The notes under the pieces: generated by a model
Seen by the model: the letters and a program-made list of their open reading frames with translations, nothing else
Database searches by the model: none
Told to the model about the DNA's origin: nothing
DNA from: Pegea sp. RAD2-039
Taxonomy: Eukaryota > Chordata > Thaliacea > Salpida > Salpidae
Direction of reading: 5' to 3'
Length of the DNA stretch: 64,000 nt
NCBI GenBank assembly: GCA_034620365.1
Contig: JAQGEQ010000365.1
Span: 372,001-436,000, forward strand
Translations under genes and position numbers: made by a program
In this document: positions 3,039 through 47,952 of the stretch, piece after piece
Layout of the letters: each line of letters opens with the position of its first letter
Position numbering within the stretch: the stretch's first letter is position 1

Positions 3039-4660
3039 AAAGTGTAAAATTGAGAATTTCTAAAAAACTGCTAGGGTCCTTAGAGTTGTAAAACGTGTTT
3101 GAGGTATTTTTAAAAATTTAATCTAAAACTTGTAATATATGTATATGAAAGCAGATTTAGGGTGTAACGGGTGATTAGTTGTATCTAAAACATATTAGTG
3201 GAGCTTGCAACAACTTTTAAAGATGCAGAGGATAGAAAGAGATTACTAAGCTTGTTGAAGTCCTAAGTCACTTTTACAGTTCTTGGAACATTGTTGATGA
3301 AGTTACCGGCATGTTACACGCCATTTTTTCAATCATTTCTGTAACTTTTATTCAAATTGTAAAACTGACTGTCGTAGTTTGAAAATAGTAATTAAAGTAG
3401 TTGTGAAAAGGCGTGAGTAAATACAAGATATGAATGAAAAGTTCCAATTAAACGTGAAAGTTAAGATTTAATTTAAAAGTTTCCAAAAACAAAACCGGCT
3501 ACTTTACTTGATTTGATTAAAGTTGTTTAGTAGGTCACTTTTAACGACAAACTCTTGAAAGCATAGAATATTTTACAGTCTTTTGAGAAATCATTAAAGA
3601 CGATACGGAAGATACTATTGGCAACTTCAAATAGTTATACTCCTGAAGAATTTTACAAAGATTTAATCTTAAGCTTATAGTGAAGATTTATGCATGAAGC
3701 AAACGGTATGCCTCATCAAGAGAAAAGATTTCTGATTACAAAATAATTCGAAAATTCAAATATTTATTTCTCAAGATATAATCTGTAGAAATTAACTGAA
3801 ATTTAACTTACGATGGATATTTATGGTTAAAAGTATAAACACCGTCAGTTTGTTTCTTGTTTAAGTAAAATAGAAAATTTTGGTAGAAAGTTATTTAAAA
3901 ACGTTTTTAAACAACTGACTTACGAGGTGAGAAATTTTATTACTCATGAGTGATAAAAACGCCAAAGTCATTAACTATTTTAAGCTAACAAGTTAAGACT
4001 TAATCATGTTTGCAAGAAGTTCAACTGCTGCGTAAGCAGTTTCAAAAATTTACAAATTCAGCTGGAGATGTCCATGCCATAAGCCATTGCAATTCAGCTT
4101 ATATCTATGAATTGTAGTTTAATGTTTGTGGTGCTAGAGTTAAAAAAAACGGTAAATTCGTTGGGTGTGAAAATACTATTTTTTAACTTCCCATCCAAAG
4201 ATAGAAAACTATTCTGCGTGATTTCGTACAATCTATACTAAGAATTTTCAGGTTTTTTAAAAGTTTTAAACAAGCTACAAATAGAAAAGTATTTTCATTA
4301 CAAAATGTATACATCTTACACAATATTTTAAAATTGATATCTGGATATACTTTTCTTAAATTTTGTAGATTTTTATAGGTCTGAACTAAAATTAACAAAA
4401 AGTCTTCGACTATACAGCTTCTATCATTTAATTTTCTATCTTCGGATGTAAAGTTTAGAAAATAGTGTTTTCGCACCAAACGACTTTTAACAATTTCATC
4501 AAAGTGACGTCTACTTTCTGGGTGAATGCAAAAGATCAAACCAAAATAAAATTATAAACACTTTCTACTCGTTAATTTTTAAATTTTAACAAATTTGTTT
4601 TCTGTAATTAAATTATTTCGTATATAATTTTTTTTGAATACCAAAATTTGTTCACTGTGG

Positions 4661-5000
4661 TGATGACGTCACCAAATGATGAAAAACAAACTATTCAGTC
4701 ATTACTGACAAAAATGCCAAAGTCACTAACTATAGTACATTACTAAATTAGGACACACACCTGATTGCAAAAGTTCAACTGCTGCATAAGCAGTTTCAAA
4801 AATTAACCAAGTTTTTATGAAAATATCGACTTCCAATTGTCAATGAATTCAGCCATTACAATTCAACTTATATTTACAAAAAGTTTGTTTATATTTTTGG
4901 TGCCTGAGATACGATTACTGTTTAAAAAGCGTTTTATGTCGAAATATTAGTTTTTTAACTTGATACGGTTTAAACATTATAACCAAACTTGGTCATTTTA
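4661..5000 (+). repeat. 340-bp CRE-bounded module, representative copy
   Basis: This extra segment defines type B. It runs from one TGATGACGTCA palindrome to the next and is 340 bp in 16 of 17 copies, differing by substitutions only. Its internal order repeats that of the monomer tail in diverged form: AAAGTCACTAACTATA, the AACTGCT-GCATA-AGCAGTT hairpin, CAGCCATTACAATTCA, TTGGTGCCTGAGATACGA, TTTTTTAACTT, palindrome. Relative to the tail it lacks about 350 bases in the last third. It therefore arose by duplication of the tail and then spread through the array. The spacer after the hairpin is constant here, unlike in the main monomer. Confidence 0.85.
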
Positions 5001-6325
5001 TGATGACGTCATCTAATGATGAAAAACGAATATTTAAACATAATTAATTATACTTTCTCTATTGAAGTTTTTATTTTAATAAAACATTATATTTATTTAT
5101 TTGCTTGCATTGATGTGTGGATTAATTAGATACTGATCTATTTTCAACAGATTAACTTCCTTTTGCTATGAGAAGTCTTACTTAACATTTGTAATGATAT
5201 CGACGAATGTTGCATTAAACCCGTTTTGCATTCAATGATGATCGACTTCAGAATGAAGTTATGATGAACCAACAGCTAGTTTAGAAACGAGGTGATGTTA
5301 ATTGTTGGCTGCAGTTGTGGTGATGGTGACAAAGTAAACGAAAGTGTAAAATTGAGAATTTCTAAAAAACTGCTAGGGTCCTTAGAGTTGTAAAACGTGT
5401 TTGAAGTGTTGTTAGAAATTTATGTAAGACTTGTAATTTATGTACAAGAATGCAGATTTAGGGTGTAAAGGGTGATTAGTTGTATTTGAAACATATTAGT
5501 GGATCTTGTAACAGCTTTTAAAGATGTAGAGGATATAAAGAGATTAGTAAGCTTGTTGACGTCCTAAGTCACTTTTACATTTCTTGGAACATTGTTGATG
5601 AAGTTACCGACATGTTACATGCGATTTTTTCAATCATTTCTGTAATATTTATTCAAATTTTAAAACTGACTGTCGTAGTTTGAAAAGATTAATATAAAAT
5701 AGTAGTGAAATGGCATAAGTATAAACAAGATATGAATGAAAAGTTCCAATTAAACGTGAAAGTTAAGATTTGAATTAAAAGTTTCGCAAACACGAAAATA
5801 AAATAGTTTAATTAATTTGATTAAAATTGTTTAGTAGGTCACTTTTAACAAAAAACTCTTGAAATCATAGAATATTTTACAGTCTTTTGAGAAATCATTA
5901 AAGATGAAATGGGAGATACTATTGATAACTTAAAATAATAATATTTCTGAAAAATTTTACAAAGATTCAATCTTAAGATTATAATAAAGATTTATTCATG
6001 AAGCAAACAATATGCCTCATCGAAAAAAAGATTTCTGAATACAAAATAATTTAACAATTCAAATATTTATTTCTCAAGATATAATCTGTAAAAATTAATC
6101 GAAACAACTTATAATGGATGTTTATTTATTAATAGTATAAACAACGTCAATTTGTTTTTTGTTTTAGTGAAATAGAGAGTTTTTATAAAAAAGTATTATA
6201 GCAAAGTTTTTCAGCAACAAATAAACGAGGTGAGAAAAATTTTTACTCATGAGTGATAAAAACGCCAAAGTCGTTAACTATATTAAGGTAACAAGTTAAG
6301 ACTTATCCATGTTTGCAAGAAGTTC

Positions 6326-6344
6326 AACTGCTGCGTAAGCAGTT
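6326..6344. repeat. Conserved hairpin AACTGCT-GCGTA-AGCAGTT, representative
   Basis: Perfect 7-bp arms around a 5-base loop. It is present once in every type A monomer and twice in every type B monomer. Common variants change the loop (GCGTA to GCATA) or the innermost stem base (AACTGCC), leaving the outer six pairs intact. It is always followed by TTCAAAAAT and then the variable cassette. Confidence 0.7.
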
Positions 6345-6351
6345 TCAAAAA

Positions 6352-6380
6352 TAGATAAAGATCAAAATGAAGATGATTGC
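6352..6380 (+). repeat. Variable cassette after the hairpin, representative
   Basis: Between the invariant TTCAAAAAT and the invariant ATCAGCCATTACA lies a 25-35 bp segment that falls into about six forms across monomers. By their first bases these are AGATAAAGATC (2, 14, 16; 4 similar), AGAACAAC (3, 6, 17, 22, 23), ATCCAATAAG (5, 8, 12, 18, exactly the delta monomers), AGATGAAATCAAAG (7, 15, 26), AGATGATAATG or close (9, 10, 11, 13, 20, 21, 24, 25), and single forms in 1 and 19. It is a ready marker of subfamily. Confidence 0.7.
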
Positions 6381-6961
6381 ATCAGCCATTACAATTCAGT
6401 TTATATCTATTAATTGTAGTTTTATGTTTGTGGTGCTTGAGTTACGAAAACAGTAAATTCGTTGGGTGTGAAAATACTATTTTTTAACTTCGCATCCAAA
6501 GATAGAAAACTATTCTGCGTGATTTCGTACAATCTAAACTAAGAATATTTCAGGTTTTTAAAAGTTTCAAACAAGCTACAAATAGAAAAGAATTTTCATT
6601 ACAAAATGTATACATCTTACACAACATTTTAAAATTGATACCTGGATATAGTTTTCTTAAATTTTGTAAATTTTTATAGGTCTGAACTAAAATTAACAAA
6701 AAGTCTTCGACTAAACAGCTTCTAACGTTTAGTTTTCTATCTTCGGATGTAAAGTTTAGAAAATAGTGTTTTCGCACCAAACGACTTTTAACAATTTCAT
6801 CAAAATGACGTCTACTTTCTTGGTGAATGCAAAAGATCTAACCCAAATAAAATTATAACCACTTTCTACTCGTTAATTTTTAAATTTGAACAAATTTGTT
6901 TTTTGTAATTAAATTTTCTCGTATCTAACTTTTTTAAAATTACCAAGCTTGTTCAATGTGG

Positions 6962-12724: not shown

Positions 12725-15050
12725 TGATGACGTCATCAAATGATGAAAAACAAACTATTCAGTCATTACTGACAAAAATGCCAAAGTCACTAACTATAGT
12801 ACATTACTAAATTAGGACACACACCTGATTGCAAAAGTTCAACTGCTGCATAAGCAGTTTCAAAAATTAAGCAAGTTTTTATGAAAATATCGACTTCCAA
12901 TTGTCAATGAATTCAGCCATTACAATTCAACTTATATTTACAAAAAGTTTTTTTATATTTTTGGTGCAAGAGATACGATTACTGTTTAAAAAGCGTTTTA
13001 TGTCGAAATATTAGTTTTTTAACTTGATACGGTTTAAACATTATAACCAAACTTGGTCACTTTTTGATGACGTCATCTAATGACGAAAAACGAATATTTA
13101 AACATAATTAATTATACTTTCTCTATTGAAGTTCTTATTTTAATAAAACATTATATTTATTTATTTGCTTGCATTGATGTGTGGATTAATTAGATACTGA
13201 TCTATTTTCAACAGATTAACTCATTTTGCTATGAGAAGTCTTACTTAACATTTGTAATGATATCGACGAATGTTGCATTAAACCCGTTTTGCATTCAATG
13301 ATGATCGACTTCAGAATGAAGTTATGATAAACCAACAGCTAGTTTAGAAACGAGGTGATGTTAATTGTTGGCTGCAGTTGTGGTGATGGTGATAAAGTAA
13401 ACGAAAGTGTAAAATTGAGAATTTCTAAAAAACTGCTAGGGTCCTAAGAGTTGTAAAACGTGTTTGAAGTGTTGTTAGAAATTTATCTAAAACTTGTAAT
13501 TTATGTACATGAATGCACATTTAGGGTATAAAGGGTGATAAGTTGTATTTAAAACATATTAGTAGAGCTTGCAACAACTTTTGAAGATGCAGAGGATATA
13601 AAGAGATTAGTAAGCATGTTGACGTCCTAAGTCACTTTTACAGTTCTTGAAACATTTTTGATGAAGCTACCAGCATGTTACACGCGATTTTTTCAATCAT
13701 TTCTGTAATTTTAATTCAAAATTTAAAACTGACTCTCGTAGTTTGAAAAGAGTAATAAAAAATAGTAGTGAAATGGCGTGAGTAAATACAAGATATGAAT
13801 GAAAAGTTCCAATTAAACGTGAAAGTTAAGATTTAATTTAAAATTTTTCCCAAAACGAAAACCGGCTACTTTACTTGATTTGATTAAAGTTGTTTAATAG
13901 TAACGTTAATCTTTTAACAATAAACTCTTGAAAACATAAAATATTTTACTGTCTTTTGAGAAATCATTAAAGATGATATGGAAGATAATATTGACAACTT
14001 CAAAAGGTAATACTCCTGAAAAATTTCATAAAGATTTAATCTTAAGATTATAATGAAGATTTATGCATGAAGCAAACGGTATGCCTCATCAAAATAAAAG
14101 ATTTCTCAACACAAGATTTCTGAATACAAAATATTTCAACAATTCAAATATTTATACCTCAAGTTATAATCTATAGAAATTAATTGAAACTTAAATTAAG
14201 ATGAATGTTTATTTATTAATAGTATAAACTTCGTCAGTTTGTTTTTGTTTAAGTTAAATAGAGAATTTTATTAGAAAGTAGTCTAACAACGTTTCTCAGC
14301 AACTGATATACAAGGTGAGAAAATTTGTTACTCATTAGTGAAAAAAACGCCAAAGTCATTAACTATATTAAGCCAACAAGTTAAGACTTAATCATGTTTG
14401 CAAAATGTTCAACTGCCGCGTAAGCAGTTTCAAAAATAGAACAACTGATGTTTTATAGAATGATGCCATCAGCCATTACAATTCAGTTTATATCTATGAA
14501 GTGTAGTTTTATGTTTGTGGTGCTTGAGTTACGAAAACAGTAAATTCGTTGATTGTAAAAATACTATTTTTTAAACTTGGTAACCAAATATAGAAAACTA
14601 TTCTGCGTGTATTCTTACAATTTATACTAAGAAATTTTTAGGTTTTTTAAAAGTTTCAAACAAGCTACAAATAAAAGATAATTTTCATAAAAAAATGTAT
14701 CCATCTTACACAACATTTTAAAATTGATATCTGGATATACTTTTCTTAAATTTTGTAAAATTTATAGGCTTGAACTAAAATTAACAAAAAATGTTCGACT
14801 AAACAGCTTCTAACATTTAGTTTTCTATCTTCGGATGTAAAGTTTAGAAAATTGTGTTTTCACACCAAACGACTTTTAACATATTCATCAAAGTGACGTC
14901 TACTTTCTTACTGAATGCAAAAGATCAAACCCAAATAAAATTATAACCACTTTCTACTCGCTAATTTTTAAATTTGAACAAATTTGTTTGCTATATATAA
15001 ATTATTTCGCATCTAATTTTTTTTTAAATACCCAAATTTGTTCACTGTGG
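12725..15050 (+). repeat. Monomer 6, type B
   Basis: Length 2326. The module is 12725-13064 and its closing palindrome is at 13065. The cassette is of the AGAACAAC form with the TTTTATAGAATG ending also seen in monomer 23. Confidence 0.92.
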
Positions 15051-17358
15051 TGATGACGTCATCAAATGATGAAAAACAAACTATTCAGTTATTACTGACA
15101 AAAATGCCAAAGTCACTAACTATAGTACATTACTAAATTAGGACACACACCTGATTGCAAAAGTTCAACTGCTGCATAAGCAGTTTCAAAAATTAACAAA
15201 GTTTTTATGAAAATATCGACTTCCAATTGTCAATGAATTCAGCCATTACAATTCAACTTATATTTACAAAAAGTTTTTTTATATTTTTGGTGCCTGAGAT
15301 ACGATTACTGTTTAAAAAGCGTTTTATGTCGAAATATTAGTTTTTTAACTTGATACGGTTTAAAAATTATAACCAAACTTGGTCACTTTTTGATGACGTC
15401 ATCTAATGACGAAAAACGAATATTTAAACATAATTAATTATACTTTCTCTATTGAAGTTTTTATTTTAATATAACATTATATTTAATTATTTGCTTGCAT
15501 TGATGTGTGGATTAATTAGATACTGATCTATTTTCATCAGATTAACTTCCTTTTGCTATGAGAAGTCTTACTTAACATTTGTAATGATATCGACGAATGT
15601 TGCATTAAACCCGTTTTGCAATCAATGATGATCGACTTCAGAATGAAGTTATGATGAACCAACAGCTAGTTTAGAAACGAGGTGATGTTAATTGTTGGCT
15701 GCAGTTGTGGTGATGGTGATAAAGTAAACGAAAGTGTAAATTTGAGAATCTCTTAAAACCTGCTAGGGTCCTTAGAGTTGTAAAACGTGTTTAAAGTATT
15801 TTTAGAAATTTATCTAAAAATTGTAATTTATGTACATGAATGCAGATTTAGGGTGTAAAGGGTGATTAGTTGTATTTGAAACATATTAGTGGATCTTGTA
15901 ACAGCTTTTAAAGATGCAGAGGATATAAAGAGATTACTAAGCTTGTTGACGTCCTAAGTCACTTTTACAGTTCTTGGAACATTGTTGATGAAGTTACCGG
16001 CATGTTACATGCGATTTTTTCAATCATTTCTGTAATATTTATTCAAATTTTAAAACTGACTGTCGTAGTTTGAAAAAAAAGTGATATGAAATAGTAGTGA
16101 AATGGCATAAGTAAATACAAGATATGAATGAAAAGTTCCAATTAAACGTGAGAGTTAAGATTTGAATTAAAAGTTTTCCAAAAACGAAAATAAAATAGTT
16201 TAATTAGTTTGATTAAAGTTGTTTAGTAGGTCACTTTTAACGACAAACTATTGAAATCATAGAATATTTTACAGTCTTTTGAGAAATCATTAAAGACGAT
16301 AAGGAAGATACTATTGATAACTTAAAATAATAATGTTTCTGAAAAATTTTACAAAGATTCAATCTTAAGATTATAATAAAGATTTATTCATGAAGCAAAC
16401 AATATGCCTCATCGAAAAAAAGATTTCTGAATACAAAATAATTTAACAATTCAAATATTTATTTCTCAAGATATAATCTGTAAAAATTAATTGAAACAAA
16501 ACTTATAATGGATGTTTATTTAATAATAGTATAAACAACGTCAATTTGTTTTTTGTTTTAGTAAAATAGAGAGTTTTTATAAAAAAGTATTATAGCAAAA
16601 TTTTTCAGCAACAAATAAACGAGGTGAGAAAAATTTTTACTCATGAATGATAAAAACGCCAAAGTCATTAACTATATTAAGGTAACAAGTTAAGACTTAG
16701 ACAAGTTTTCAAAAAGTTCAACTGCTGCGTAAGCAGTTTCAAAAATAGATGAAATCAAAGTGAGGATCAGATGTCATCAGCCATTACAATTCAGCTTATA
16801 TCTATGAAGTGTAGTTTTATGTTTGTGGTGCTTGAGTTACGAAAACGGTAAATTCGTTGATTGTGAAAATACTATTTTTTAAACTTGGCATCCAAAGATA
16901 GAAAACTATTTTGCGTGATTTTTTAAAATCTATACTAATAATATTTAAGGTTTTTTAAAAGTTTCAAACAAGCTACATATAAAAGGGAATTTTCATAAAA
17001 AAATGTATCAATCTTACACAACATTTTAAAATTGATATCTGGATATACTTTTCTTAAATTTTGTAAAATTTTAAACGTCTGAACTAAAATTAACAAAAAG
17101 TCTTCGACTATACAGCTTCTACCATTTAATTTTCTATCTTCGGATGTAAAGTTTAGAAAAAGGTGTTTTCACACCAAACGACTTTTAACATCTTCATTAA
17201 AATGACGTCTTCTTTCTTGGTGAATGCAAAAGATCAAACCCAAATAAAATTATAACCACTTTCTACTCGTTAATTTTTAAAATTGAACAAATTTGTTTTC
17301 TGTGATTAAATTATTTCGTATATAATTTTTTTTGAATACCAAAATTTGTTCACTGTGG
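15051..17358 (+). repeat. Monomer 7, type B
   Basis: Length 2308. The module is 15051-15390. From about 15750 onward it is gap-free collinear with monomer 15 (offset 17118) and monomer 26 (offset a further 25177). The three share the rare strings TCTTAAAACCTG and GTGATATGAA and the AGATGAAATCAAAG cassette. Confidence 0.92.
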
Positions 17359-19505
17359 TGATGACGTCATCAAATGATGAAAAACAAACTATTCAGTCAT
17401 TACTGACAAAAATGCCAAAGTCACTAACTATAGTACATTACTAAATTAGGACACACACCTGATTGCAAAAGTTCAACTGCTGCATAAGCAGTTTCAAAAA
17501 TTAACCAAGTTTTTATGAAAATATCGACTTCCAATTGTCAATGAATTCAGCCATTACAATTCAACTTATATTTACAAAAAGTTTTTTTATATTTTTGGTG
17601 CCTGAGATACGATTACTGTTTAAAAAGCGTTTTATGTCGAAATATTAGTTTTTTAACTTGATACGGTTTAAACATTATAACCAAACTTGGTCACTTTTTG
17701 ATGACGTCATCTAATGATGAAAAACGAATATTTAAACATAATTAATTATACTTTCTCTATTGAAGTTCTTATTTTAATATAACATTATATTTATTTATTT
17801 ATTTATTTGCTTGCATTGATGTGTGGATTAATTAGATACTGATCTATTTTCATCAGATTAACTTCCTTTTGCTATGAGAAGTCTTACTTAACATTTGTAA
17901 TGATGTCGACGAATGTTGCATTAAACCCGTTTTACAATCAATGATAATCGACTTCAGAATGAAGTGATGTTGAACCAACAGCTAGTTTAGAAACGAGGTG
18001 ATGTTAATTGTTGGCTGCAGTTGTGGTGATGGTGATAAAGTAAACAAAGTGTAAATTTGAGAATCTCTTAAAACCTGCTAGGGTCTGTAGACTGTGAAAA
18101 CGTGTTTAAAAATTTAATCTAAAACTTGTAATATATGTACATGAAAGCAGATTTAGGGTGTAAAGGGTGATTAGTTGTATCTAAAACATATTAGTGGATC
18201 TTGCAACAACTTTTGAAGATGAAGAGGATATAAAGATATTAGTAAGCTTGTTGACTTCTTAAGTTACGTTTACCGTTCTTGAAACATTTTTGATGAAGTT
18301 ACCGGCATGTTACACGCGATTTTTTCAATCATTTTGGTAATTATTATTCAAATTTTAAAACTGACTGTCGTAGTTCGAAAAGAGTTATAAAAATAGTAGT
18401 GAAATGGCGTGAGTAAATACAAGATATGAATGAAAAGTTCCAATTTAACGTGAAAGTTAAGATTTGAATTAAAAGTTTTCCAAAAACGAAAATAAAATAT
18501 TTTAATTAATTTGATTAAAGTTGTTTAGTAGGTCACTTTTAACAACAAACTATTGAAAGCATAGGACATTTTACAGTCTTTTGAGAATTCACTAATGATG
18601 ATATGGGAGATACTATTTTTAACTTCAAATAATAATGTTTCTGAAAAATTTTACAAGGATTTAAATTTAAACTGATTATGAAGATTTATGCATGAAGCAA
18701 ACGGTATGCCTCATCGAAAGAAAAGATTTCTGAATACAAAATAATTCGAAAATTCAAATATTTATTTCTCAAGATATAATCTGTAGAAATTAATTGAAAT
18801 TTAACTTAGGATGGATATTTATGATTAAAAGTATAAACACCGTCAGTTTGTTTCTTGTTTAAGTAAAATATAAAATTTCGGTAGACAGTTATTTAAAAAC
18901 GTTTTGCAGCAACTAACTTACGCGGAGAGAAATTTTATCACTCATGAGTGATAAAAACGCCAAAGTCATTAACTATGTTAAGGTAACAAGTTAAGACTTA
19001 ATCATGTTTGCACAAAGTTCAACTGCCGCATAAGCAGTTTCAAAAATATCCAATAAGAAATAAAACAACTCTATGCTATCGGTCATTACATTTCATCTTA
19101 TATCTATGAATTGTAGTTTTATGTTTGTGGTGCTTGAGTTACGAAAACGGTAAATTCATTAGGTGTAAAAATACTATTTTTTAAACTTGGTATCCAAAGA
19201 TAGAAAACTAATCTGCGTGATTTTGTACAATCTATACTAATAATATTTCAGGTTTTTTAAAAGTTTCAAACAAGCTACAAATAGAAATGGCTAAAAATAG
19301 CTACAAATAGTGTTTACACACCAAACGACTTTTAACATATTCATCAAAGTGACGTCTACTTTCTTATTGAATGCAAAAGATCAAACCCAAATAAAATTAT
19401 AACCACTTTCTACTCGTTAATTTTTAAATTTGAACAAATTTGTTTTCTGTAATTAAATTATTTCGTATATAATTTTTTTTGAATACCAAAATTTGTTCAC
19501 TGTGG
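17359..19505 (+). repeat. Monomer 8, type B delta
   Basis: Length 2147. It is the only monomer that combines the 340-bp module (17359-17698) with the tail deletion (scar near 19280-19310). It has the delta-specific ATCCAATAAG cassette but not the partial duplication seen in monomers 5, 12 and 18, so it looks like a recombinant. Confidence 0.92.
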
Positions 19506-21791
19506 TGATGACGTCATCAAATGATGAAAAACAAACTATTCAGTCATTACTGACAAAAATGCCAAAGTCACTAACTATAGTACATTACTAAATTAGGACA
19601 CACACCTGATTGCAAAAGTTCAACTGCTGCATAAGCAGTTTCAAAAATTAACCAAGTTTTTATGAAAATATCGACTTCCAATTGTCAATGAATTCAGCCA
19701 TTACAATTCAACTTATATTTACAAAAAGTTTTTTTATATTTTTGGTGCCTTAGATACGATTACTGTTTAAAAAGCGTTTTATGTCGAAATATTAGTTTTT
19801 TAACTTGATACGGTTTAAACATTATAACCAAACTTGGTCACTTTTTGATGACGTCATCTAATGATGAAAAACGAATATTTAAACATAATTAATTATACTT
19901 TCTCTATTGAAGTTTTTATTTTAATATAACATTATATTTATTTATTTGCTTGCATTGATGTGTGGATTAATTAGATACTGATCTATTTTCATCAGATTAA
20001 CTTCCTTTTGCTATGAGAAGTCTTACTTAACATTTGTAATGATATCGACGAATGTTGCATTAAACCCGTCTTGCAATCAATGATGATTGACTTCAGAATG
20101 AAGTTATGATGAACCAACAGCTAGTTTAAAAACGAGGTGATGTTAATTGTTGGCTGCAGTTGTGGTGATGGCGATAAAGTAAACAAAAGTGTAAAATTGA
20201 GAATTTCTAAAAAACTGCTAGGGTCCTTAGAGTTGTAAAACGTGTTTGAAGTGTTGTTAGAAATTTATGTACATGAATGCAGATTTAGGGTGTAAAGGGT
20301 GATTAGTTGTATCTAAAACATATAAGTTGAGCTTGCAACAACTTTTGAAGATGCAGAAGATACAAAGAGATTAGTAAGCTTGTTGAAGTCCTAAGTTGCT
20401 TTTACAGTTCTTCAATCATTTTTGATGAAACTACCAGCATGTTACACGCGATTTTTTCAATCATTTCTGTAAATTTCATTAAAATTTTAAAACTGACTGT
20501 CGTATTTTGAAAAGAGTAATATAAAATAGTAGTGAAATGGCGTGAGTAAATACAAGATATGAATGAAAAGTTCCAATTAAACGTGAAAGTTAAGATTTGA
20601 ATTAAAAGTTTTCCAAAACGAAAATAAAATATTTTAATTAATTTGATTAAAGTTGTTTAGTAGGTCACTTTTAACAACAAACTCTTGAAAGCATAGGACA
20701 TTTTACAGTCTTTTGAGAAATCATTAAAGACGATAAGGAAGATACTATTGATAACTTAAAATAATAATGTTTCTGAAAAATTTTACAAAGATTTAAATTT
20801 AAACTGATAGTGAAGATTTTTGCATGAAGCAAACGGTATGCCTCATCGAAAGAAAAGATTTCTGAATACAAAATAATTCGAAAATTCAAATATTTATTTC
20901 TCAAGATATAATCTGTAGAAAATAATTGAAATTTAACTTAGGATGGATATTTATGATTAATATTATAAACACCGTCAGTTTGTTTCTTGTTTAAGTAAAA
21001 TAGAAAATTTTGGTAGACAGCTATTTAAAAACGTTTTTCAACAACTGACTTACGAGGTGAGAAATTTTATTACTCATGAGTGATAAAAACGCCAAAGTCA
21101 TTAACTATTTTAAGCCAACAAGTTAAGACTTATCCATGTTTGCAAAATGTTCAACTGCTGCGTAAGCAGTTTCAAAAATAGATGACAATGAAAATAAAGA
21201 TCAGTGCCATCAACCATTACAATTCAGTTTATATCTATGAAGTGTAGTTTTATGTTTGTGGTGCTTGAGTTACGAAAACGGTAAATTCGTTGATTGTGAA
21301 AATACTATTTTTTAAACTTGGCATCCAAAGATAGAAAACTATTTTGCGTGATTTTGTAAAATCTATACTAATAATATTTAAGGTTTTTTAAAAGTTTCAA
21401 ACAAGCTACAAATAGAAAAGAATTTTCATTACAAAATGTATCCATCTTACACAACATTTTAAAATTGATATCTGGATATAATTTTCTTAAATTTTGTAAA
21501 TTTTTATAGGTCTGAACTAAAATTAACAAAAAGTCTTCGACTATACAGCTTCTACCATTTAATTTTCTATCTTCGGATGTAAAGTTTAGAAAATAGTGTT
21601 ATCACACTAAACGACTTTTAACAATTTCATCAAAATTACGTCTACTTTCTTGGTGAATGCAAAAGATCAAACCCAAATAAAATTATAACCACTTTCTACT
21701 CGTTAATTTTTAAATTTGAACAAATTTGTTTTCTGTAATTAAATTATTTCGTATATAATTTTTTTTGAATACTAAAATTTGTTCACTGTGG
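19506..21791 (+). repeat. Monomer 9, type B
   Basis: Length 2286. The module is 19506-19845. The cassette is AGATGACAATGAAAATAAAG. A small internal deletion near 20260 removes part of the ATTTATCTAAAACTTGTA segment and explains the slightly short length. Confidence 0.92.
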
Positions 21792-24093
21792 TGATGACGT
21801 CATCAAATGATGAAAAACAAACTATTCAGTCATTACTGACAAAAATGCCAAAGTCACTAACTATAGTACATTACCAAATTAGGACACACACCTGATTGCA
21901 AAAGTTCAACTGCTGCATAGGCAGTTTCAAAAATTAACCAAGTTTTTATGAAAATATCAACTTCCAATTGTCAATGAATTCAGCCATTACAATTCAACTT
22001 ATATTTACAAAAAGTTTTTTTATATTTTTGGTGCCTGAGATACGATTACTGTTTAAAAAGCGATTTATGTCGAAATATTAGTTTTTTAAGTTGATACGGT
22101 TTAAACATTATAACCAAACTTGGTCATTTTTTGATGACGTCATCTAATGATGAAAAACGAATATTTAAACATAATTAATTATACTTTCTCTATTGAAGTT
22201 CTTATTTTAATATAACATTATATTTATTTATTTGCTTGCATTGATGTGTGGATTAATTAGATACTGATCTATTTTCATCAGATTAACTTCCTTTTGCTAT
22301 GAGAAGTCTTACTTAACATTTGTAATGATATCGACGAATGTTGCATTAAACCCGTTTTGCATTCAATGATGATCGACTTCAGAATGAAGTTATGATGAAC
22401 CAACAGCTAGTTTAGAAACGAGGTGATGTTAAATGTTGGCTGCAGTTGTGGTGATGGTGATAAAGTAAACAAAAGTGTAAATTTGAGAATCTCTAAAAAA
22501 CTGCTAGGGTCCTTAGAGTTGTAAAACGTGTTTGCAGTATTTTTAGAAATTTATCTAAAAATTGTAATTTATGTACATGAATGCAGATTTATTGTGTAAA
22601 GGGTGATTAGTTGTATTTAAAACATATTAGTGGAGCTTGCAATAATTTTTGAAGATGCAGAGATTTGAAATAGATTAGTAAGCTTGTTGAAGTCCTAAGT
22701 CGCTTTTACCGTTCTTGAAACATTTTTGATGAAACTACCAGCATGTTACACGCGATTTTTTCAATCATTTCTGTAATATTTATTCAAATTTTAAAACTGA
22801 CTGTCGTAGTTTGAAAAGATTAATATAAAATAGTAGTGAAATGGCATAAGTAAATACAAGATATGAGTGAAAAGTTCCAATTAAACGTGAAAGTTAAGAT
22901 TTGAATTAAAAGTTTTCCAAAAACGAAAATAAAATAGTTTACTTGATTTGATTAAAGTTGTTTAGTAGGTCACTTTTAACGACAAACTCGTGAAAGCATA
23001 GGACATTTACAGTCTTTTGAGAAATCATTAAAGACAATAAGGAAGATACTATTGATAACTTCAAATAATAATGTTTCTGAAAAATTTTACAAAGATTTAA
23101 ATTTAAACTGATAGTGAAGATTTTTGCATGAAGCAAACGGTATGCCTCATCGAAAAAAAGATTTCTGAATACAAAATAATTTAACAATTCAAATATTTAT
23201 TTCTCAAGATATAATCTGTAGAAATTAATCGAAACAAAACTTATAATGGATGTTTATTTATTAATAGTATAAACTTCGTCAGTTTGTTTCTTGTTTAAGT
23301 AAAATATAAAATTTCGGCAGACAGTTATTTGACAACGTTTTTCAACAACTGACTTACGAGGTGAGAAATTTTATTACTCATGAGTGATAAAAACGCCAAA
23401 GTCATTAACTATTTTAAGCCAGCAAGTTAAGACTTAATCATGTTTGCAAATTGTTCAACTGCCGCGTAAGCAGTTTCAAAAATAGATGATAATGAATTAA
23501 AGATCAGTGCCATCAACCATTACAATTCAGCTTATATCTATGAAGTGTCGTTTTATGTTTGTGGTGCTTGAGTTACGAAAACGGTAAATTCGTTGATTGT
23601 GAAAATACTATTTTTTAAACTTTGCATCAAAAGATAGAAAACTATTTTGCGTGATTTTGTAAAATCTATACTAATAATATTTAAGGTTTTTTAAAAGTTT
23701 CAAACAAGCTACATATAAAAGGGAATTTTCATAAAAAAATGTATACATCTTATACAACATTTTAAAATTGATATCTGGATATACTTTTCTTAAATTTTGT
23801 TAATTTTTATAGGTCTGAACTAAAATTAACAAAAAGTCTTCGACTATACAGCTTCTACCATTTAATTTTCTATCTTCGGATGTAAAGTTTAGAAAATAGT
23901 GTTTTCACACTAAACGACTTTTAACAATTTCATTAAAATGACGTCTTCTTTCTTGGTGAATGCAAAAGATCAAACCCAAATAAAATTATAACCACTTTCT
24001 ACTCGTTAATTTTTAAATTTGAACAAATTTGTTTTCTGTAATTAAATTATTCCGTATCTAATTTTTTTAAATTACCAAACTTGTTCAATGTGG
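21792..24093 (+). repeat. Monomer 10, type B
   Basis: Length 2302. The module is 21792-22131. The cassette is AGATGATAATGAATTAAAG, the same as in monomers 11, 20 and 24. It ends in the AAACTTGTTCAATG lead that precedes monomers 11 and 20. Confidence 0.92.
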
Positions 24094-27891: not shown

Positions 27892-30209
27892 TGATGACGT
27901 CATCAAATGATGAAAAACAAACTATTCAGTCATTACTGACAAAAATGCCAAAGTCACTAACTATAGTACATTACTAAATTAGGACACACACCTGATTGCA
28001 AAAGTTCAACTGCTGCATAAGCAGTTTCAAAAATTAACCAAGTTTTTATGAAAATATCGACTTCCAATTGTCAATGAATTCAGCCATTACAATTCAACTT
28101 ATATTTACAAAAAGTTTTTTTATATTTTTGGTGCCTGAGATACGATTACTGTTTAAAAAGCGTTTTATGTCGAAATATTAGTTTTTTAACTTGATACGGT
28201 TTAAACATTATAACCAAACTTGGTCATTTTATGATGACGTCATCTAATGATGAAAAACGAATATTTAAACATAATTAATTATACTTTCTCTATTGAAGTT
28301 CTTATTTTAATAAAACATTATATTTATTTATTTGCTTGCATTGATGTGTGGATTAATTAGATACTGATCTATTTTCATCAGATTAACTTCCTTTTGCCAT
28401 GAGAAGTCTTACTTAACATTTGTAATGATATCGACGAATGTTGCATTAAACCCGTTTTGCAATCAATGATGATCGACTTCAGAATGAAGTTATGATGAAC
28501 CAACAGCTAGTTTAGAAACGAGGTGATGTTAATTGTTGATTGCAGTTGTGGTGATGGTGATAAAGTAAAAGAAAGTGTAAATTTGAGAATCTCTAAAAAA
28601 CTGCTAGGGTCCTTAGAGTTGTAAAACGTGTTTGAAGTGTGTTTAGAAATTTATCTAAGATTTGTAATATATATACATGAATGCAGATTTAGGGTGTAAA
28701 GGGTGATTAGTTGTATTTAGAACATATTAGTGGAGCTTGCAACAACTTTTGAAGATGCAGAGGATATAAAGAGATTAGTAAGCTTGTTGAAGTCCTAAGT
28801 CGCTTTTACCGTTCTTGAAACATTTATGATGAAGCTACCAGCATGTTACACGCGATTTTTTCAATCATTTTATTAATTATTATTCAAATTTTAAAACTGA
28901 CTGTCGTAGTTTGAAAAGAGTAATAAAAATTAGTAGTGAAATGGCTTGAGTAAATACAAGATATGAATTAAAAAATCCAATTAAACGTGAAAGTTAAGAT
29001 TTAATTTAAAAGTTTTCCAAAAACGAAAACCGGCTACTTTACTTGATTTGATTAAAGTTGTTTAATAGGTCACTTTTAACAACAAACTCTTGAAAGCATA
29101 AAATATTTTACTGTCTTTTGAGAAATCATTAAAGATGATACGGAAGATAATAATGACAACTTCAAAAAGTAATACTCCTGAAAAATTTGATAAATATTTA
29201 ATCTTAAGATTATAATGAAGATTTATGCATGAAGCAAACGCTATGCCTCATCAAAATAAAAGATTTCTCAACACCAGAATTCTGAATACAAAATATTTCA
29301 ACAATTCAAATATTTATATCTCAAGTTATAATCTGTAGAAATTTATTGAAACTTAAATTAAGATGAATGTTTATGATTAATAGTATAAAATTCTTCAATT
29401 TGTTTTTGTTTAAGTTAATTAGAGAATTTTATTAGAAAGTAGTTTAACAACGTTTTTCAGCAACTGATTTACGAGGTGAGAAAATTTATTACTCATTAGT
29501 GATAAAAACGCCAAAGTCATTAACTATATTAAGCCAATAAGTTAAGAATTAATCATGTTTTCAAAATGTTCAACTGCCGCGTAAGCAGTTTCAAAAATAG
29601 ATGATAAGGAAAATGAAGATCAGTGCCATCAGCCATTACAATTCAGGTTATATCTATGAAGTGCAGTTTTATGTTTGTGGTGCTTGAGTTACGAAAAAGG
29701 TAAATTCGTTGATTGTCAAAATACTGTTTTTTAAACTTGGCATCCAAAGATAGAAAACTATTTTGCGTGATTTTGTAAAATCTATACTAAGAATATTTCA
29801 GGTTTATTTAAAGTTTCAGAAAAGGTACCAATAGAAAAGAATTTTCATTACAAAATGTATACATCTTACACAACATTTTACAATTGATATCTGGATATAC
29901 TTTTCTTAAATTTTGTAAAATTTATAGGTTTGAACTAAAATTAACAAAAAATGTTCGACTAAACAGTTTCTAACATTTAGTTTTCTATCTTCGGATGTAA
30001 AGTTTAGAAAATTGTGTTTTCACACCAAACGACTTTTAACATATTCATCAAAGTGACGTTTACTTTCTTACTGGATGCAAAAGATCATACCCAAATAAAA
30101 TTATAACCACTTTCTACTCGTTAATTTTTTAATTTGAACAAATTTGTTTTCTGTAATTAAATTATTTCGTATATAATTTTTTTTGAATACCAAAATTTGT
30201 TCACTGTGG
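27892..30209 (+). repeat. Monomer 13, type B
   Basis: Length 2318. The module is 27892-28231. The cassette is AGATGATAAGGAAAATGAAG, intermediate between two forms. The tail has private changes (TTCAGAAAAGGTACCAATAG near 29816). Confidence 0.92.
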
Positions 30210-32511
30210 TGATGACGTCATCAAATGATGAAAAACAAACTATTCAGTCATTACTGACAAAAATGCCAAAGTCACTAACTATAGTACATTACTAAATTAG
30301 GACACACACCTGATTGCAAAAGTTCAACTGCTGCATAAGCAGTTTCAAAAATTAACCAAGTTTTTATGAAAATATCGACTTCCAATTGTCAATGAATTCA
30401 GCCATTACAATTCAACTTATATTTACAAAACGTTTTTTTATATTTTTGGTGCCTGAGATACGATTACTGTTTAAAAAGCGTTTTATGTCGAAATATTAGT
30501 TTTTTAACTTGATACGGTTTAAACATTATAACCAAACTTGGTCATTTTTTGATGACGTCATCTAATGATGAAAAACTAATATTTAAACATAATTAATTAT
30601 ACTTTCTCTATTGAAGTTTTTATTTTAATATAACATTATATTTATTTATTTGCTTGCAATGATACGCAGATTAATTAGATACTGATCTATTTTCATCAGA
30701 TTAACTTCCTTTTGCTATGAGAAGACTTACTTAACATTTGTAATGATATCGACGAATGTTGCATTAAACCCGTTTTGCAATCAATGATGATCGACTTCAG
30801 AATGAAGTTATGATGAACCAACAGCTAGTTTAGAAACGAGGTGATGGTTATTGTTGGCTGCAGTTGTGGTGATGGTGATAAAGTAAACAAAAGTGTAAAA
30901 TTGAGAATTTCTAAAAAACTGCTAGGGTCCTTAGAGTTGTAAAACGTGTTTGAAGTGTTTTTAGAAATTTATCTAAAACTTGTAATTTATGTACATGAAT
31001 GCAGATTTAGGGTGTAAAGGGTGATTAGTTGTATTTAAAACATATTAGTGGATCTTGCAACAACTTTTAAAGATGCAAAGGATAGAAAGAGATTAGTAAG
31101 CTTGTTGACGTCCTAAGTCGCTTTTACCGTTCTTGAAACATTTTTGATGAAGCCATCAGCATGTTACACGCCATTTTTTCAATCATTTTGGTAATTATTA
31201 TTCAAATTTTAAAACTTACTGTTGTAGTTCGAAAAGAGTTATAAAAAATAGTAGTGAAATGGCGTGAGTAAATACAAGATATGAATGAAAAGTTTCAATT
31301 AAACGTGAAAGTTAAGATTTGAATTAAAAGTTTTCCAAGAACAAAAATAAAATAGTTTAATTAATTTGATTAAAGTTGTTTAGTAGGTCACTTTTAACGA
31401 CAAACTCTTGAAAGCATAGGACATTTACAGTCTTTTGAGAAATCATTAAAGACGATAAGGAAGATACTATTGATAACTTAAAATAATAATGTTTCTGAAA
31501 AATTTTACAAAGATTCAATCTTAAGATTATAATAAAGATTTATTCATGAAGCAAACAATATGCCTCATCGAAAAAAAGATTTCTGAATACAAAATAATTT
31601 AACAATTCAAATATTTATTTCTCAAGATATAATCTGTAGAAATTAATCGAAACATAACTTATAATGGATGTTTATTTATTAATAGTATAAACAACGTCAA
31701 TTTGTTTTTTGTTTTAGTAAAATAGAGAGTTTTGCTAAAAAATTATTATAGCAAAGTTTTTTAGCAACAACTAAACGAGGTGAGAAATTTTTTTACTCAT
31801 GAGTGATAGAAGCGCCAAAGTCGTTAACTATATTAAGGTAACAAGTTAAGACTTATCCATGTTTGCAAGAAGTTCAACTGCTGCGTAAGCAGTTTCAAAA
31901 ATAGATAAAGATCAAAATGAAGATGATTGCATCAGCCATTACAATTCAGTTTATATCTATTAATTGTAGTTTTATGTTTGTGGTGCTTGAGTTACGAAAA
32001 CAGTAAATTCGTTGGGTGTGAAAATACTATTTTTTAACTTCGCATCCAAAGATAGAAAACTATTCTGCGTGATTTCGTACAATCTAAACTAAGAATATTT
32101 CAGGTTTTTAAAAGTTTCAAACAAGCTACAAATAGAAAAGAATTTTCATTACAAAATGTATACATCTTACACAACATTTTAAAATTGATACCTGGATATA
32201 GTTTTCTTAAATTTTGTAAATTTTTATAGGTCTGAACTAAAATTAACAAAAAGTCTTCGACTAAACAGCTTCTAACGTTTAGTTTTCTATCTTCGGATGT
32301 AAAGTTTAGAAAATAGTGTTTTCGCACCAAACGACTTTTAACAATTTCATCAAAATGACGTCTACTTTCTTGGTGAATGCAAAAGATCAAACCCAAATAA
32401 AATTATAACCACTTTCTACTCGTTAATTTTTAAATTTGAACAAATTTGTTTTCTGTAATTAAATTTTCTCGTATCTAACTTTTTTAAAATTACCAAGCTT
32501 GTTCAATGTGG
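30210..32511 (+). repeat. Monomer 14, type B
   Basis: Length 2302. The module is 30210-30549. The cassette is of the AGATAAAGATC form. The 98-codon minus-strand frame (32100-32396) is open, as in monomer 4, and the two tails are nearly identical. Confidence 0.92.
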
Positions 32512-34476: not shown

Positions 34477-36778
34477 TGATGACGTCATCAAATGATGAAA
34501 AACAAACTATTCAGTCATTACTGACAAAAATGCCAAAGTCACTAACTATAGTACATTACTAAATTAGGACACACACCTGATTGCAAAAGTTCAACTGCTG
34601 CATAAGCAGTTTCAAAAATTAACCATGTTTTTATGAAAATATCGACTTCCAATTGTCAATGAATTCAGCCATTACAATTCAACTTATATTTACAAAAATT
34701 TTTTTTATATTTTTGGTGCCTGAGATACGATTACTGTTTAAAAAGCGTTTTATGTCGAAATATTAGTTTTTTAACTTGATACGGTTTAAACATTATAACC
34801 AAACTTGGTCACTTTTTGATGACGTCATCTAATGATGAAAAACGAATATTTAAACATAATTAATTATACTTTCTCTATTGAAGTTCTTATTTTAATATAA
34901 CATTATATTTATTTATTTGCTTGCAATGATACGTGGATTAATTAGATACTGATATATTTTCAACAGATTAACTTCTTTTGCTATTAGAAGTCTTACTTAA
35001 CATTTGTAATGATATCGACGAATGTTGCATTAAACCCGTTTTGCAATCAATGATGATCGACTTCAGACTGAAGTGATGATGAACCAACAGCTAGTTTAGA
35101 AACGAGGTGATGTTAATTGTTGGCTGCAGTTGTGGTGATGGTGATAAAGTAAACGAAAGTGTAAATTTGAGAATCTCTAAAAAACTGCTAGGGTCCTTAG
35201 AGTTGTAAAACGTGTTTGAAGTGTTGTTAGAAATTTATCTAAAAATTGTAATTTATGCACATGAATGCAGATTTAGGGTGTAAAGGGTGATTAGTTGTAT
35301 CTAAAACATGTTAGTGGAGCTTGCAACAACTTTTAAAGATGCAGAGGATATAAAGAGATTAGTAAGCTTGTTGAAGTCCTAAGTTACGTTTACAGTTCTT
35401 GAAACATTGTTGATGAAGCTACCAGCATGTTACACGCGATTTTTTCAATCATTTCTGTAATATTTATTCAAATTTTAAAACTGACTGTCGTAGTTTGAAA
35501 AAAAGTAATAAAAAATAGTAGTGAAATGGCGTGAGTAAATACAAGATATGAATGAAAAGTTCCAATTTAACGTGAAAGTTAAGATTTGAATTAAAAGTTT
35601 TCCAAAAACGAAAATAAAATAGTTTAATTAATTTGATTAAAGTTGTTTAGTAGGTCACTTTTAACGACAAACTCTTGAAAGCATAAGACATTTACAGTCT
35701 TTTGAGAAATCATTAAAGACGATAAGGAAGATACTATTGATAACTTAAAATAATAATGTTTCTGAAAAATTTTACAAAGATTCAATCTTAAGATTATAAT
35801 AAAGATTTATTCATGAAGCAAACAATATGCCTCATCGAAAAAAAGATTTCTGAATACAAAATAATTTAACAATTCAAATATTTATTTCTCAAGATATAAT
35901 CTGTAGAAATTAATTGAAACAAAACTTATAATGGATGTTTATTTATTAATAGTATAAACAACGTCAATTTGTTTTTTGTTTTAGTAAAATAGAGAGTTTT
36001 GCTAAAAAAGTATTATAGCAAAGTTTTTTAGCAACAACTAAACGAGGTGAGAAATTTTTTTACTAATGAGTGATAAAAGCGCCAAAGTCGTTAACTATAT
36101 TAAGGTAACAAGTTAAGACTTATCTATGTTTGCAAAAAGTTCAACTGCTGCGTAAGCAGTTTCAAAAATAGATAAAGATCAAAATGAAGATGATTGCATC
36201 AGCCATTACAATTCAGTTTATATCTATTAATTGTAGTTTTATGTTTGTGGTGCTTGAGTTACGAAAACAGTAAATTCGTTGGGTGTGAAAATACTATTTT
36301 TTAACTTCGCATCCAAAGATAGAAAACTATTCTGCGTGATTTCGTACAATCTAAACTAAGAATATTTCAGGTTTTTAAAAGTTTCAAACAAGCTACAAAT
36401 AGAAAAGAATTTTCATTACAAAATGTATCCATTTTACACAACATTTTAAAATTGATATCTGGATATACTTTTCTTAAATTTTGTTAATTTTTATAGGTCT
36501 GAACTAAAATTAACAAAAAGTATTCGACTATACAGCTTCTACCATTTAATTTTCTATCTTCGGATGTAAAGTTTAGAAAATAGTGTTTTCACACTAAACG
36601 ACTTTTAACAATTTCATCAAAATGACGTCTACTTTCTTGGTGAATGCAAAAGATCAAACCCAAATAAAATTATAACCACTTTCTACTCGTTAATTTTTAA
36701 ATTTGAACAAAGTTGTTTTCTGTAATTAAATTATTTCGTATATAATTTTTTTTGAATACCAAAATTTGTTCACTGTGG
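34477..36778 (+). repeat. Monomer 16, type B
   Basis: Length 2302. The module is 34477-34816. The cassette is of the AGATAAAGATC form. In the core the conserved inverted repeat reads ACTTCA-GAC-TGAAGT, a loop change that spares both arms. Confidence 0.92.
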
Positions 36779-39091
36779 TGATGACGTCATCAAATGATGA
36801 AAAACAAACTATTCAGTCATTACTGACAAAAATGCCAAAGTCACTAACTATAGTACATTACTAAATTAGGACACACACCTGATTGCAAAAGTTCAACTGC
36901 TGCATAAGCAGTTTCAAAAATTAACCAAGTTTTTATGAAAATATCGACTTCCAATTGTCAATGAATTCAGCCATTACAATTCAACTTATATTTACAAAAA
37001 GTTTTTTTATATTTTTGGTGCCTGAGATACGATTACTGTTTAAAAAGCGTTTTATGTCGAAATATTAGTTTTTTAAGTTGATACAGTTTAAACATTATAA
37101 CCAAACTTGGTCACTTTTTGATGACGTCATCTAATGATAAAAAACGAATATTTAAACATAATTAATTATACTTTCTCTATTGAAGTTCTTATTTTAATAT
37201 AACATTATATTTATTTATTTGCTTGCAATGATACGTGGATTAATTAGATACTGATTTATTTTCATCAGATTAACTTCCTTTTGATATGAGAAGTCTTACT
37301 TAACATTTGTAATGATATCGACGAATGTTGCATTAAACCCGTTTTACAATCAATGATAATCGACTTCAGAATGAAGTTATGATGAACCAACAGCTAGTTT
37401 AGAAACGAGGTGATGTTAATTGTTGGCTGCAGTTGTGGTGATGGTGACAAAGTAAACGAAAGTGTAAATTTGAGAATCTCTAAAAAACTGCTAGGGTCCT
37501 TAGAGTTGTAAAACGTGTTTGAAGTGTTTTTAGAAATTTATCTAAAACTTGTAATTTATGTACATGAATGCAGATTTAGGGTGTAAAGGGTGATTAGTTG
37601 TATTTAGAACATATTAGTGGAGCTTGCAACAACTTTTGAAGATGCAGAGGATAGAAAGAGATTAGTAAGCTTGTTGAAGTCCTAAGTCGCTTTTACCGTT
37701 CTTGAAACATTTATGATGAAGCCACCGGCATGTTAAACGCGATTTTTTCAATCATTTTATTAATTATTATTCAAATTTTAAAACTGACTGTCGTAGTTTG
37801 AAAAGAGTAATAAAAATTAGTAGTGAAATGGCGTGAGTAAATACAAGATATGAATTAAAAAATCCAATTAAACGTGAAAGTTAAGATTTAATTTAAAAGT
37901 TTTCCAAAAACGAAAACCGGCTACTTTACTTGATTTGATTAAAGTTGTTTAATAGTAACGTTAAACTTTTAACAATAAACTCTTGAAAGCATAAAATATT
38001 TTACTGTCTCTTGAGAAATCATTGAAGATGATACGGAAGATACTATTGACAACTTCAAAAGGTAATACTCCTGAAAAATTTCATAAATATTTAATCTTAA
38101 GATTATAATGAAGATTTATGCATGAAGCAAACGGTATGCCTCATCAAAATAAAAAATTTCTCGACACATAATATTTCAACAATTCAAATATTTATATCTC
38201 AAGTTATAATCTGTAGAAATTAATTGAAACTTAAATTAAGATGAATGTTTATGATTAACAGTATAAACTTCGTCAGTTTGTTTTTTGTTTAAGTTAAATA
38301 GAGAATTTTATTAGAAAGTAGTTTAACAACGTTTTTCAGCAACTGATTTACGAGGTGAGAAAATTTATTACTCATTAGTGATAAAAACGCCAAAGTCATT
38401 AACTATATTAAGCCAACAAGTTAAGACTTAATCATGTTTGCAAAATGTTCAACTGCCGCGTAAGCAGTTTCAAAAATAGAACAACAGATGTTTTATTGAA
38501 TGATGCCATCAGCCATTACAATTCAGTTTATATCTATGAAGCGTAGTTTTATGTTTGTGGTAATTGAGTTACGAAAACGGTAAATTCGTTGATTGTGAAA
38601 ATACTATTTTTTAAACTTGGTAACCAAATATAGAAAACTATTCTGCGTGATTTCTTACAATTTATACTAAGAATTTTTTAGGTTTTTTAAAAGTTTCAAA
38701 CAAGCTACAAATAAAAGAGATTTTTCATAAAAAAATGTATCCATCTTACACAACATTTTAAAATTGATATCTGGATATACTTTTCTTAAATTCTGTAAAC
38801 TTTATAGGTTTGAACTAAAATTAACAAAAAAATGTTCGACTATACAGCTTCTAACATTTAGTTTTCTATCTTCGGATGTAAAGTTTAGAAAATTGTGTTT
38901 TCACACCAAACGACTTTTAACATATTCATCAAAGTGACGTCTACTTTCTTACTGAATGCAAAAGATCAAACCCAAATAAAATTATAACCACTTTCTACTC
39001 GTTAATTTTTAAATTTGAACAAATTTGTTTGCTATTATTAAACTATTTCGTATCTAATGTTTTTTTGAATACCCAAATTTGTTCACTTTGG
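36779..39091 (+). repeat. Monomer 17, type B
   Basis: Length 2313. The module is 36779-37118. The cassette is of the AGAACAAC form. Past the module it resembles monomer 3, including the ACATTTATGATGAAGCCACC variant. Confidence 0.92.
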
Positions 39092-46977: not shown

Positions 46978-47180
46978 GTGCTTGAGTTACGAAAACGGTA
47001 AATTCGTTGATTGTGAAAATACTATTTCTTAAACTTGGCATCCAAAGATAGAAAACTATTTTGCGTGATTTTGTAAAATCTTTACTAATAATATTTAAGG
47101 TTTTTTAAAAGTTTCAAACAAGCTATATATAAAAGGGAATTTTCATAAATAAATGTATCAATCTTACACAACATTTTAAA
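46978..47180 (+). repeat. Left copy of the 203-bp tail segment flanking the insert
   Basis: It runs from GTGCTTGAGTTACG to ACATTTTAAA and covers the same part of the monomer as 47953-48155. The two copies have equal length but belong to different satellite subfamilies. Confidence 0.8.
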
Positions 47181-47207
47181 TTACTCAAAAAAGGTGTGAA
47201 GAAGTTT

Positions 47208-47279
47208 TCCAAAATGGTCGAGTGGTTAGGATTCCTGACTTTCATCCAGGCGCCCCGGGTTCGATTCCCGTTGTAGGAA
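47208..47279 (+). tRNA. tRNA-Glu(TTC)-like sequence, full length but degenerate
   Basis: The 72 bases fold as a tRNA-Glu with anticodon TTC in the loop CTTTCAT. The A box (TGGTCGAGTGG, 47215-47225) and B box (GGTTCGATTCC, 47259-47269 or one base earlier) are intact, and a T7 run (47282-47288) can end pol III transcription. The stems are damaged: the acceptor pair TCCAAAA/TGTAGGA has two mismatches, the anticodon stem has an A-C at its last pair, and the D stem and T stem have one weak pair each. It is more likely a pseudogene or the head of a tRNA-derived SINE than a working tRNA. Confidence 0.7.
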
Positions 47280-47299
47280 CATTTTTTTCTTTTTATCAT

Positions 47300-47481
47300 A
47301 AAACTTTTTATTTTGTTTATAGAAATATTATGAAACTTTTCCATTATTATCTTTTTCTAATTAGTTGATATTTTGTTTGTAAATTGTAAACTTGTAGCAA
47401 ACAGAAGCTGATAAATTGATAATCAGAAAAATGCTCTAAATTCTACTTTAAACATTAATACCGTTCAACAACTAGTCCAAC
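47300..47481. other. Unique AT-rich left half of the insert
   Basis: Nothing recognisable lies between the tRNA-like unit and the minisatellite. It does not match the satellite. Confidence 0.4.
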
Positions 47482-47572
47482 GATTCTGTCCCAGGTTTCT
47501 GTCCCAGTCTTCTGTCCCAAGTTTCTGTCCCAGGTTTCTGTCCCAGGTTTCTGTCCCAGGCTTCTGTCCCGG
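47482..47572 (+). repeat. 13-bp minisatellite, 7 copies (GTTTCTGTCCCAG)
   Basis: Seven head-to-tail copies of 13 bp fill 91 bases exactly. Copies 2, 4, 5 and 6 are identical, while copies 1, 3 and 7 have one to three changes. It is much richer in G and C than its surroundings. Its role is unknown. Confidence 0.9.
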
Positions 47573-47940: not shown

Positions 47941-47952
47941 TCGCCAGGAATC

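Follow-up and report, generated by a model that had tools for sequence, protein, structure and literature searches.

A recently spread 340-bp sub-unit in a salp satellite array and a palindrome over-represented across the genome

The window, a stretch of 64,000 nucleotides (contig C278, positions 372,001 to 436,000 of 444,113 bases) from the 105.7-Mb, 387-contig assembly of the salp Pegea sp. RAD2-039, contains one tandem array of about 58 kb on the forward strand (2601–61097; limits from self-BLAST), with flanks that give no self-matches. Its monomers of about 1.96 kb carry 27 palindrome junctions, which are marked by the word TGATGACGTCA. This word has 45 copies on the forward strand of the window, 44 inside the array and one outside (62593); with up to one mismatch, both strands together give 89 matches versus 0.81 expected from shuffles. 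The 44 array copies resolve into ten junctions with a single palindrome (type A) and 17 with two (type B), in the order ABAAABBBBBAABBABBABABBBBBAB. The word is kept in all 44, which were found by that very word, and none of the spacings is doubled, as it would be across a mutated junction. The two palindromes of a type B junction lie 340 bp apart in 16 of 17 cases and 341 bp apart in the other (59654), so the fixed length originally predicted holds, and no adjacent pair of modules occurs in the array. The remaining distances between copies range from 1807 to 1986 bp, except for 2942 bp, a monomer with an insert of about 1 kb, and 2598 bp, the distance to the outlying copy. Head-to-tail repeats with variants that spread between units make the array a tandem satellite under concerted evolution.

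Several further features lie within or beside the array. The insert (about 47050–48050) carries a tRNA-Glu (TTC) at 47207–47280 and a 13-bp tandem repeat of 6.7 copies, and its far end reads by eye as a tRNA-like remnant in reverse complement. At the right edge of the array (60768–61096) there is an inverted copy of the segment R described below, with up to 92% identity to R copies. The right flank (about 62.0–64.0 kb) recurs in another tandem array with a period of about 5.9 kb, which reaches both the C278 end and the beginning of contig C279; the two contig ends are 98% identical and the contigs may therefore be neighbours. To the left of the array, positions 1008–1613 hold a single 201-aa frame, C-type-lectin-like by eye and with a membrane-like C-terminal segment, which has no Pfam match.

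The interval between the two palindromes of a type B junction is a module found on the forward strand throughout. The copy in which it was first noted lies at 4661–5000 and has one change in its first palindrome. Junction spacing places others at 12725–13064, 17359–17698, 19506–19845, 21792–22131, 27892–28231, 30210–30549, 34477–34816, 36779–37118, 40932–41271, 45201–45540, 48483–48822, 50807–51146, 55385–55724 and 59654–59994 (341 bp, with one extra T), and two more, with unusual left flanks, lie at 15051–15390 and 53082–53421. Each module runs from a first palindrome box, P1 (TGTGGTGATGACGTCATCAAATGATGAAAAAC; 4656–4687, forward strand), which has one change in the copy at 4661 and is exact in 25 of the 27 junctions, to a second box, P2 (TGATGACGTCATCTAATGATGAAAAAC; 5001–5027, forward strand). 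The original prediction of the same palindrome at both ends stands in that P2 is a 27-bp direct repeat of P1, identical at 26 of 27 positions, but fails for the 14-bp words themselves: the first is TGATGACGTCATCA in 26 of 27 junctions and 16 of 17 modules, the sole exception being TGATGACGTCACCA in the copy at 4661, and the second is TGATGACGTCATCT in all 17. Across 25 aligned units (one was skipped), the monomer's three longest invariant runs measure 15, 14 and 14 bp, and two of them lie side by side in TGGTGATGACGTCA-CAAATGATGAAAAAC, within the palindrome box.

Alignment of all 17 modules gave a mean pairwise difference of 1.54% (median 1.5%). The module is less diverse than all eight neighbouring 340-bp windows in the same 17 rows, which differ by 3.3, 8.3, 14.4 and 16.8% downstream and by 12.3, 15.8, 16.6 and 13.7% upstream, although these means are raised by rows that align badly (with maxima as high as 56%) and the flank medians are 3.3–15.4%. 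Variable columns number 36 in the module, with 31 private to one copy and five shared, and three of the shared ones sit within the last 11 columns. The first upstream window has 122 variable columns (87 shared, 35 singleton-only) and the first downstream window has 58 (19 shared). The set of modules is star-like and recent, which bears out the prediction that the module was spread or homogenised later than its host.

Low diversity could instead reflect purifying selection on a functional 340-bp element, and parts of these repeats do look constrained. A block adjoining the module (5104–5297, forward strand) is conserved in contig C322, where 13 copies on both strands, spread over 22–108 kb together with shorter pieces, match it at 76–89% identity (12 of 13 at 83–89%). 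The alignment extends back past the palindrome in five of the 13 copies, and the 14-mer is intact in five of the 13; a palindrome box with up to about 300 bp is thus common to two otherwise different arrays, those of C278 and C322. Against selection on the module itself, however, stand the sharing of five of its 36 variable columns between copies, the ten of 27 junctions that do without it, and the absence of an Rfam match at the module together with a two-sided change in just one of 31 predicted pairs of the adjoining block. We consider selection an improbable cause of the low diversity. A conserved RNA in the C322-type block was likewise set aside on the pair count and on the absence of an Rfam match in seven loci (L011, L012, L013, L015, L018, L019 and L020). 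The region C322:20001–110000 is a large tract of complex 1–6-kb repeats in which the block copies switch orientation between about 52.8 and 61.8 kb.

Comparison of the module with one aligned monomer revealed paralogy to two of its parts. Segment R (6236–6490, forward strand) is a paralog of module positions 28–301 (70.9%), and the stretch before P1 together with P1 (6939–6990, forward strand) is a paralog of the module tail plus P2 (84.6%). Between R and P the monomer has a foldback insertion (6455–6788, forward strand) with 59-bp inverted arms (84.7%), which is absent from the module. The module thus appears to be an uninterrupted R'-P sub-unit of the roughly 2-kb satellite monomer, and as one extra R'-P unit it would owe its 340 bp to the landmark-to-landmark length of that unit. 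Matches to R turned up over most of the array in a DNA search; this search passes over common words, so the repeat counts are lower bounds, and the best 40 of 45 candidates were scored. The foldback insertion has relatives at C278:129.7 kb (88%) and within the array of about 5.9-kb period at the C278/C279 ends (75%). Outside the array the module has a relative at C278:129513–129770 (83%), after which come a foldback arm and another R start. The right flank and the C278/C279 ends also carry two TGACGTCA cores separated by 335 bp, but this second pair was rejected as a module homolog (score 13 versus a shuffled mean of 15.6); it is one stretch that recurs in the array with a period of about 5.9 kb.

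The edges of the spread sequence were read from the aligned junctions. The haplotype specific to type B reaches about 60–100 bp to the left of P1 and about 105 bp to the right of P2, which for the first module gives an approximate exchanged tract of 4571–5105 (forward strand). About 32–92 bp to the right of P2, types B and A differ by 27–29%, versus 1–3% within B. To the left of P1, the flanks of four A copies are B-like, which makes the left edge softer than the right, and the B–A contrast partly reflects variation among A copies. Two B copies have other left flanks: the copy at 15051 is A-like to about 18 bp before P1, and the copy at 53082 lacks about 53 bp, the gap ending about 17 bp before P1. 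These two count against a reading by exchange, as in them the switch on the left may be close to the palindrome. Both palindromes lie inside the exchanged tract, with its edges beyond them, and the exact boundaries at the palindrome that were originally predicted are therefore not seen. Nor is the palindrome implicated in the movement by its position at the module ends alone, because it is a word that occurs genome-wide, as described below.

The near-constant length, the single palindrome marking the ends and the recent star-like copies might suggest a mobile unit with palindromic ends that an enzyme cuts and joins, by transposition or by excision as a circle. The ends, however, are 27-bp direct repeats, the common haplotype passes both of them, and no ORF of at least 110 aa overlaps the module. 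Outside the array, the best 40 of 45 candidates yielded a single diverged relative but neither tandem nor dispersed copies, which is a lower bound, and the free or head-to-tail 340-bp units proposed as a test of the original prediction were not seen in the assembly. A self-mobilising unit with palindromic cut sites does not match a tract that passes the palindromes by about 60–105 bp, with two copies switching within about 20 bp on the left; nor does a MITE-like transposable element match a module that has 27-bp direct repeats and occurs in the array and, beyond it, as one diverged relative (again a lower bound). We regard a mobile unit as very improbable.

The module is spread over different monomer backgrounds. 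In quick trees built without the junction, the B label required six changes upstream (130–900 bp, 26 rows; shuffled mean 7.7, with 60 of 500 shuffles as low and five changes forced by starred branches) and eight downstream (130–1000 bp, 27 rows; shuffled mean 8.3, with 247 of 500 as low and six forced). The label does cluster within the 110 bp to the left of P1, with three changes versus 8.1 and none of 500 shuffles as low. Linkage, taken as the rank correlation of pairwise distances between 150-bp windows (25 of 26 units, the insert-bearing one being left out), averages 0.31, 0.24, 0.19 and 0.17 within monomers at gaps of 0, 60, 150 and 300 bp. Weak linkage along the whole array is what would be expected if exchange is frequent everywhere.

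A hotspot of the M26/CRE type would give the palindrome an active part: a bZIP protein on TGACGTCA would start exchange, the palindrome tracts would be homogenised first, and biased conversion would spread the word. The two palindromes near the ends of the homogenised tract and the box with two of the three longest invariant runs are consistent with this. Linkage across the junction was 0.49, 0.19, −0.06 and 0.25 at the four gaps (23 pairs), and the value at 150 bp falls below 98% of the within-monomer values; it is low at that one gap size of four, however, and the other three (0.49, 0.19 and 0.25) compare with 0.31, 0.24 and 0.17 within monomers. The 14 B junctions alone gave 0.09, 0.03, −0.03 and 0.23, low at three of four gaps, but their flanks lie 340 bp further apart. 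Break-starting sites are, moreover, normally lost by conversion (the hotspot paradox), which speaks against such a word being spread by it. The 14-mer core ATGACGTCAT is the M26 motif, whose activity as a meiotic hotspot has been examined in both S. pombe and S. cerevisiae; the study concerned reports no significant link between the 7-bp word and natural breaks in S. cerevisiae (PMC3534124). The likeness to the yeast motif lies in ATGACGTCAT inside the 14-mer. We think a hotspot unlikely as the driver of the module's spread.

The reading we prefer, with a probability of roughly 0.66, is that the module is a duplicated satellite sub-unit spread by homologous exchange, in which the palindrome box is kept as a genome-wide word. 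The monomer has the order segment R, foldback insertion and palindrome box P1, and in type B an additional R'-P unit without interruption comes after P1. The module probably entered 17 of the 27 junctions recently through gene conversion or unequal crossover between monomers, in an exchanged tract of some 500–550 bp that comprises both palindromes and about 60–105 bp outside each. The module length would then be fixed because the copies are young, and the box intact because the word is kept genome-wide, most likely as a bZIP (CREB/ATF-type) binding site, with the palindrome presumably a passenger in the spread. This reading rests on one assembly. If correct, the module offers a clear example of a satellite in which a sub-unit has swept from monomer to monomer by exchange and not through cutting at the sub-unit's ends. 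Known complex satellites resemble the array in their head-to-tail monomers of about 2 kb, mosaic linkage and a variant sub-unit passed between units; unlike them, the sub-unit here is delimited by a word over-represented genome-wide.

This word is the unexpected part of the analysis, one 8-bp CRE palindrome in about 29-fold excess in an animal genome. The core TGACGTCA has 27,792 copies in the 105.7 Mb versus 969 for a reversed control of the same composition, and base composition alone would predict 682–1,273 at 28–38% G+C. The 14-mer TGATGACGTCATCA has 1,972 copies versus none for its reversed control. The density of the core is about one per 3.8 kb and the copies are clustered: on the first 1.56 Mb of contig C1, 29 of 99 gaps are shorter than 500 bp versus 3.1 expected. 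Over the same stretch, TGATGTCA, a likely decay product of the core, has one such gap of 74 versus 1.7 expected. Genome-wide, TGATGTCA reaches 5,503 + 5,567 copies versus 1,373 + 1,300 for the control, an excess that some decay of TGACGTCA would give. Intact cores nevertheless outnumber decayed forms: 12 C1 loci selected for the 14-mer have 79 of them versus 30 sites of all 12 one-mismatch forms (11.4 expected), and 90 kb of C322 has 76 versus 54 (20.5 expected), which indicates that the word is young, selected or maintained. The core matches the CREB/ATF (bZIP) site and is a putative binding site, and the 14-mer is what we take to be a bZIP consensus site of the JDP2/BATF3 kind.

The core occurs in satellites, intron-like stretches and coding-like frames. 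Fifteen distinct 14-mer sites on C1 have flanks unrelated to one another, and flanks around other cores favour TGA/TCA. At least three of the C1 sites (L025, L032 and L033) lie in GT..AG stretches of about 46–60 bp that look intron-like by eye. In long open frames, the two usable phases of the 14-mer give DV or TS. Across seven ORFs, five of them from loci chosen for the 14-mer, DV is spelled GACGTC in 13 of 21 cases versus 1.5 expected, and TS is spelled ACGTCA in five of 13 versus 0.5 expected. Among loci so chosen, core sites number nine in a BTB frame and two each in I-set, RFC1-like and formin-like frames (the RFC1-like and formin-like ones were identified by eye and have no Pfam match). 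There are none in an RCC1 frame or in two DNMT1 frames, in which none of six DV pairs is spelled GACGTC. The BTB frame belongs to a 3,014-base locus near 2.05 Mb on C1 (L036) with 29 cores in 3 kb, nine of which fall in a 194-codon frame with a BTB match and spell DV/DDVI or TS/MTSS. The genes matched were BTB, I-set, RCC1 and DNMT1-like, with the formin-like and RFC1-like frames and the short introns recognised by eye; together they indicate an animal genome.

A bZIP-type protein might set off biased conversion or repair that has spread a highly iterated palindrome, TGACGTCA/TGATGACGTCATCA, across genes, introns and satellites and actively maintains it, with the module sweep as a local trace of this process; we hold this to be a doubtful account. 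If conversion or repair preserves the word, an animal would offer a test of how iterated palindromes arise; if its role is regulatory, a single binding site would dominate this genome to an extreme degree. CENP-B boxes and other protein boxes are common to unrelated satellites. The box with up to about 300 bp common to the C278 and C322 arrays is similar, whereas the palindrome here also occurs outside satellites. The core is also, like the highly iterated palindromes (HIP), a short palindrome far above its genome-wide expectation. With HIP1 (GCGATCGC) of cyanobacteria (Elhai 2015; PMC4390886) it shares the 8-bp length, the extension into the flanks and the presence in non-coding and coding-like DNA; in contrast, the word here belongs to an animal nuclear genome, has a CRE core, and is clustered at its density of one in a few kilobases. 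An iterated TGACGTCA in an animal was not reported among the titles and abstract starts listed from the open-licence literature, and the motif and palindrome passages listed from PMC12221973 do not name it. A Caenorhabditis satellite probe containing TGACGTCATCA, as given in PMC13370393, was set aside because the genome has no exact nematode SL1. Searches of the genome also gave no rotifer SL at up to two mismatches, no COX1 and no cuticle-collagen N-terminus, the last in a search that had no positive control.

An exon-by-exon search for a cognate methyltransferase like that of HIP, from which specificity is not readable, revealed no bacterial-type enzyme; N6/N4 methylases gave no match in the genome (two candidates scored). 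The same search gave 11 matches to PF00145 (C5 methylase), eight of them in open frames of 603–873 aa on C57, C249, C32, C52 and C262, an apparent expansion of DNMT1-like genes. Both of the two matches that were read (L040 and L041) combine BAH and methylase domains, and comparison of one of them with the PDB showed it to be DNMT1-like. At L040 a single frame holds the DNMT1-like BAH and methylase domains, and a reverse-transcriptase ORF lies close by. At C1:6131841 (L039), an rDNA copy that looks truncated lies beside a TCATCAA-rich minisatellite, and a further 18S word is found at C278:8956.
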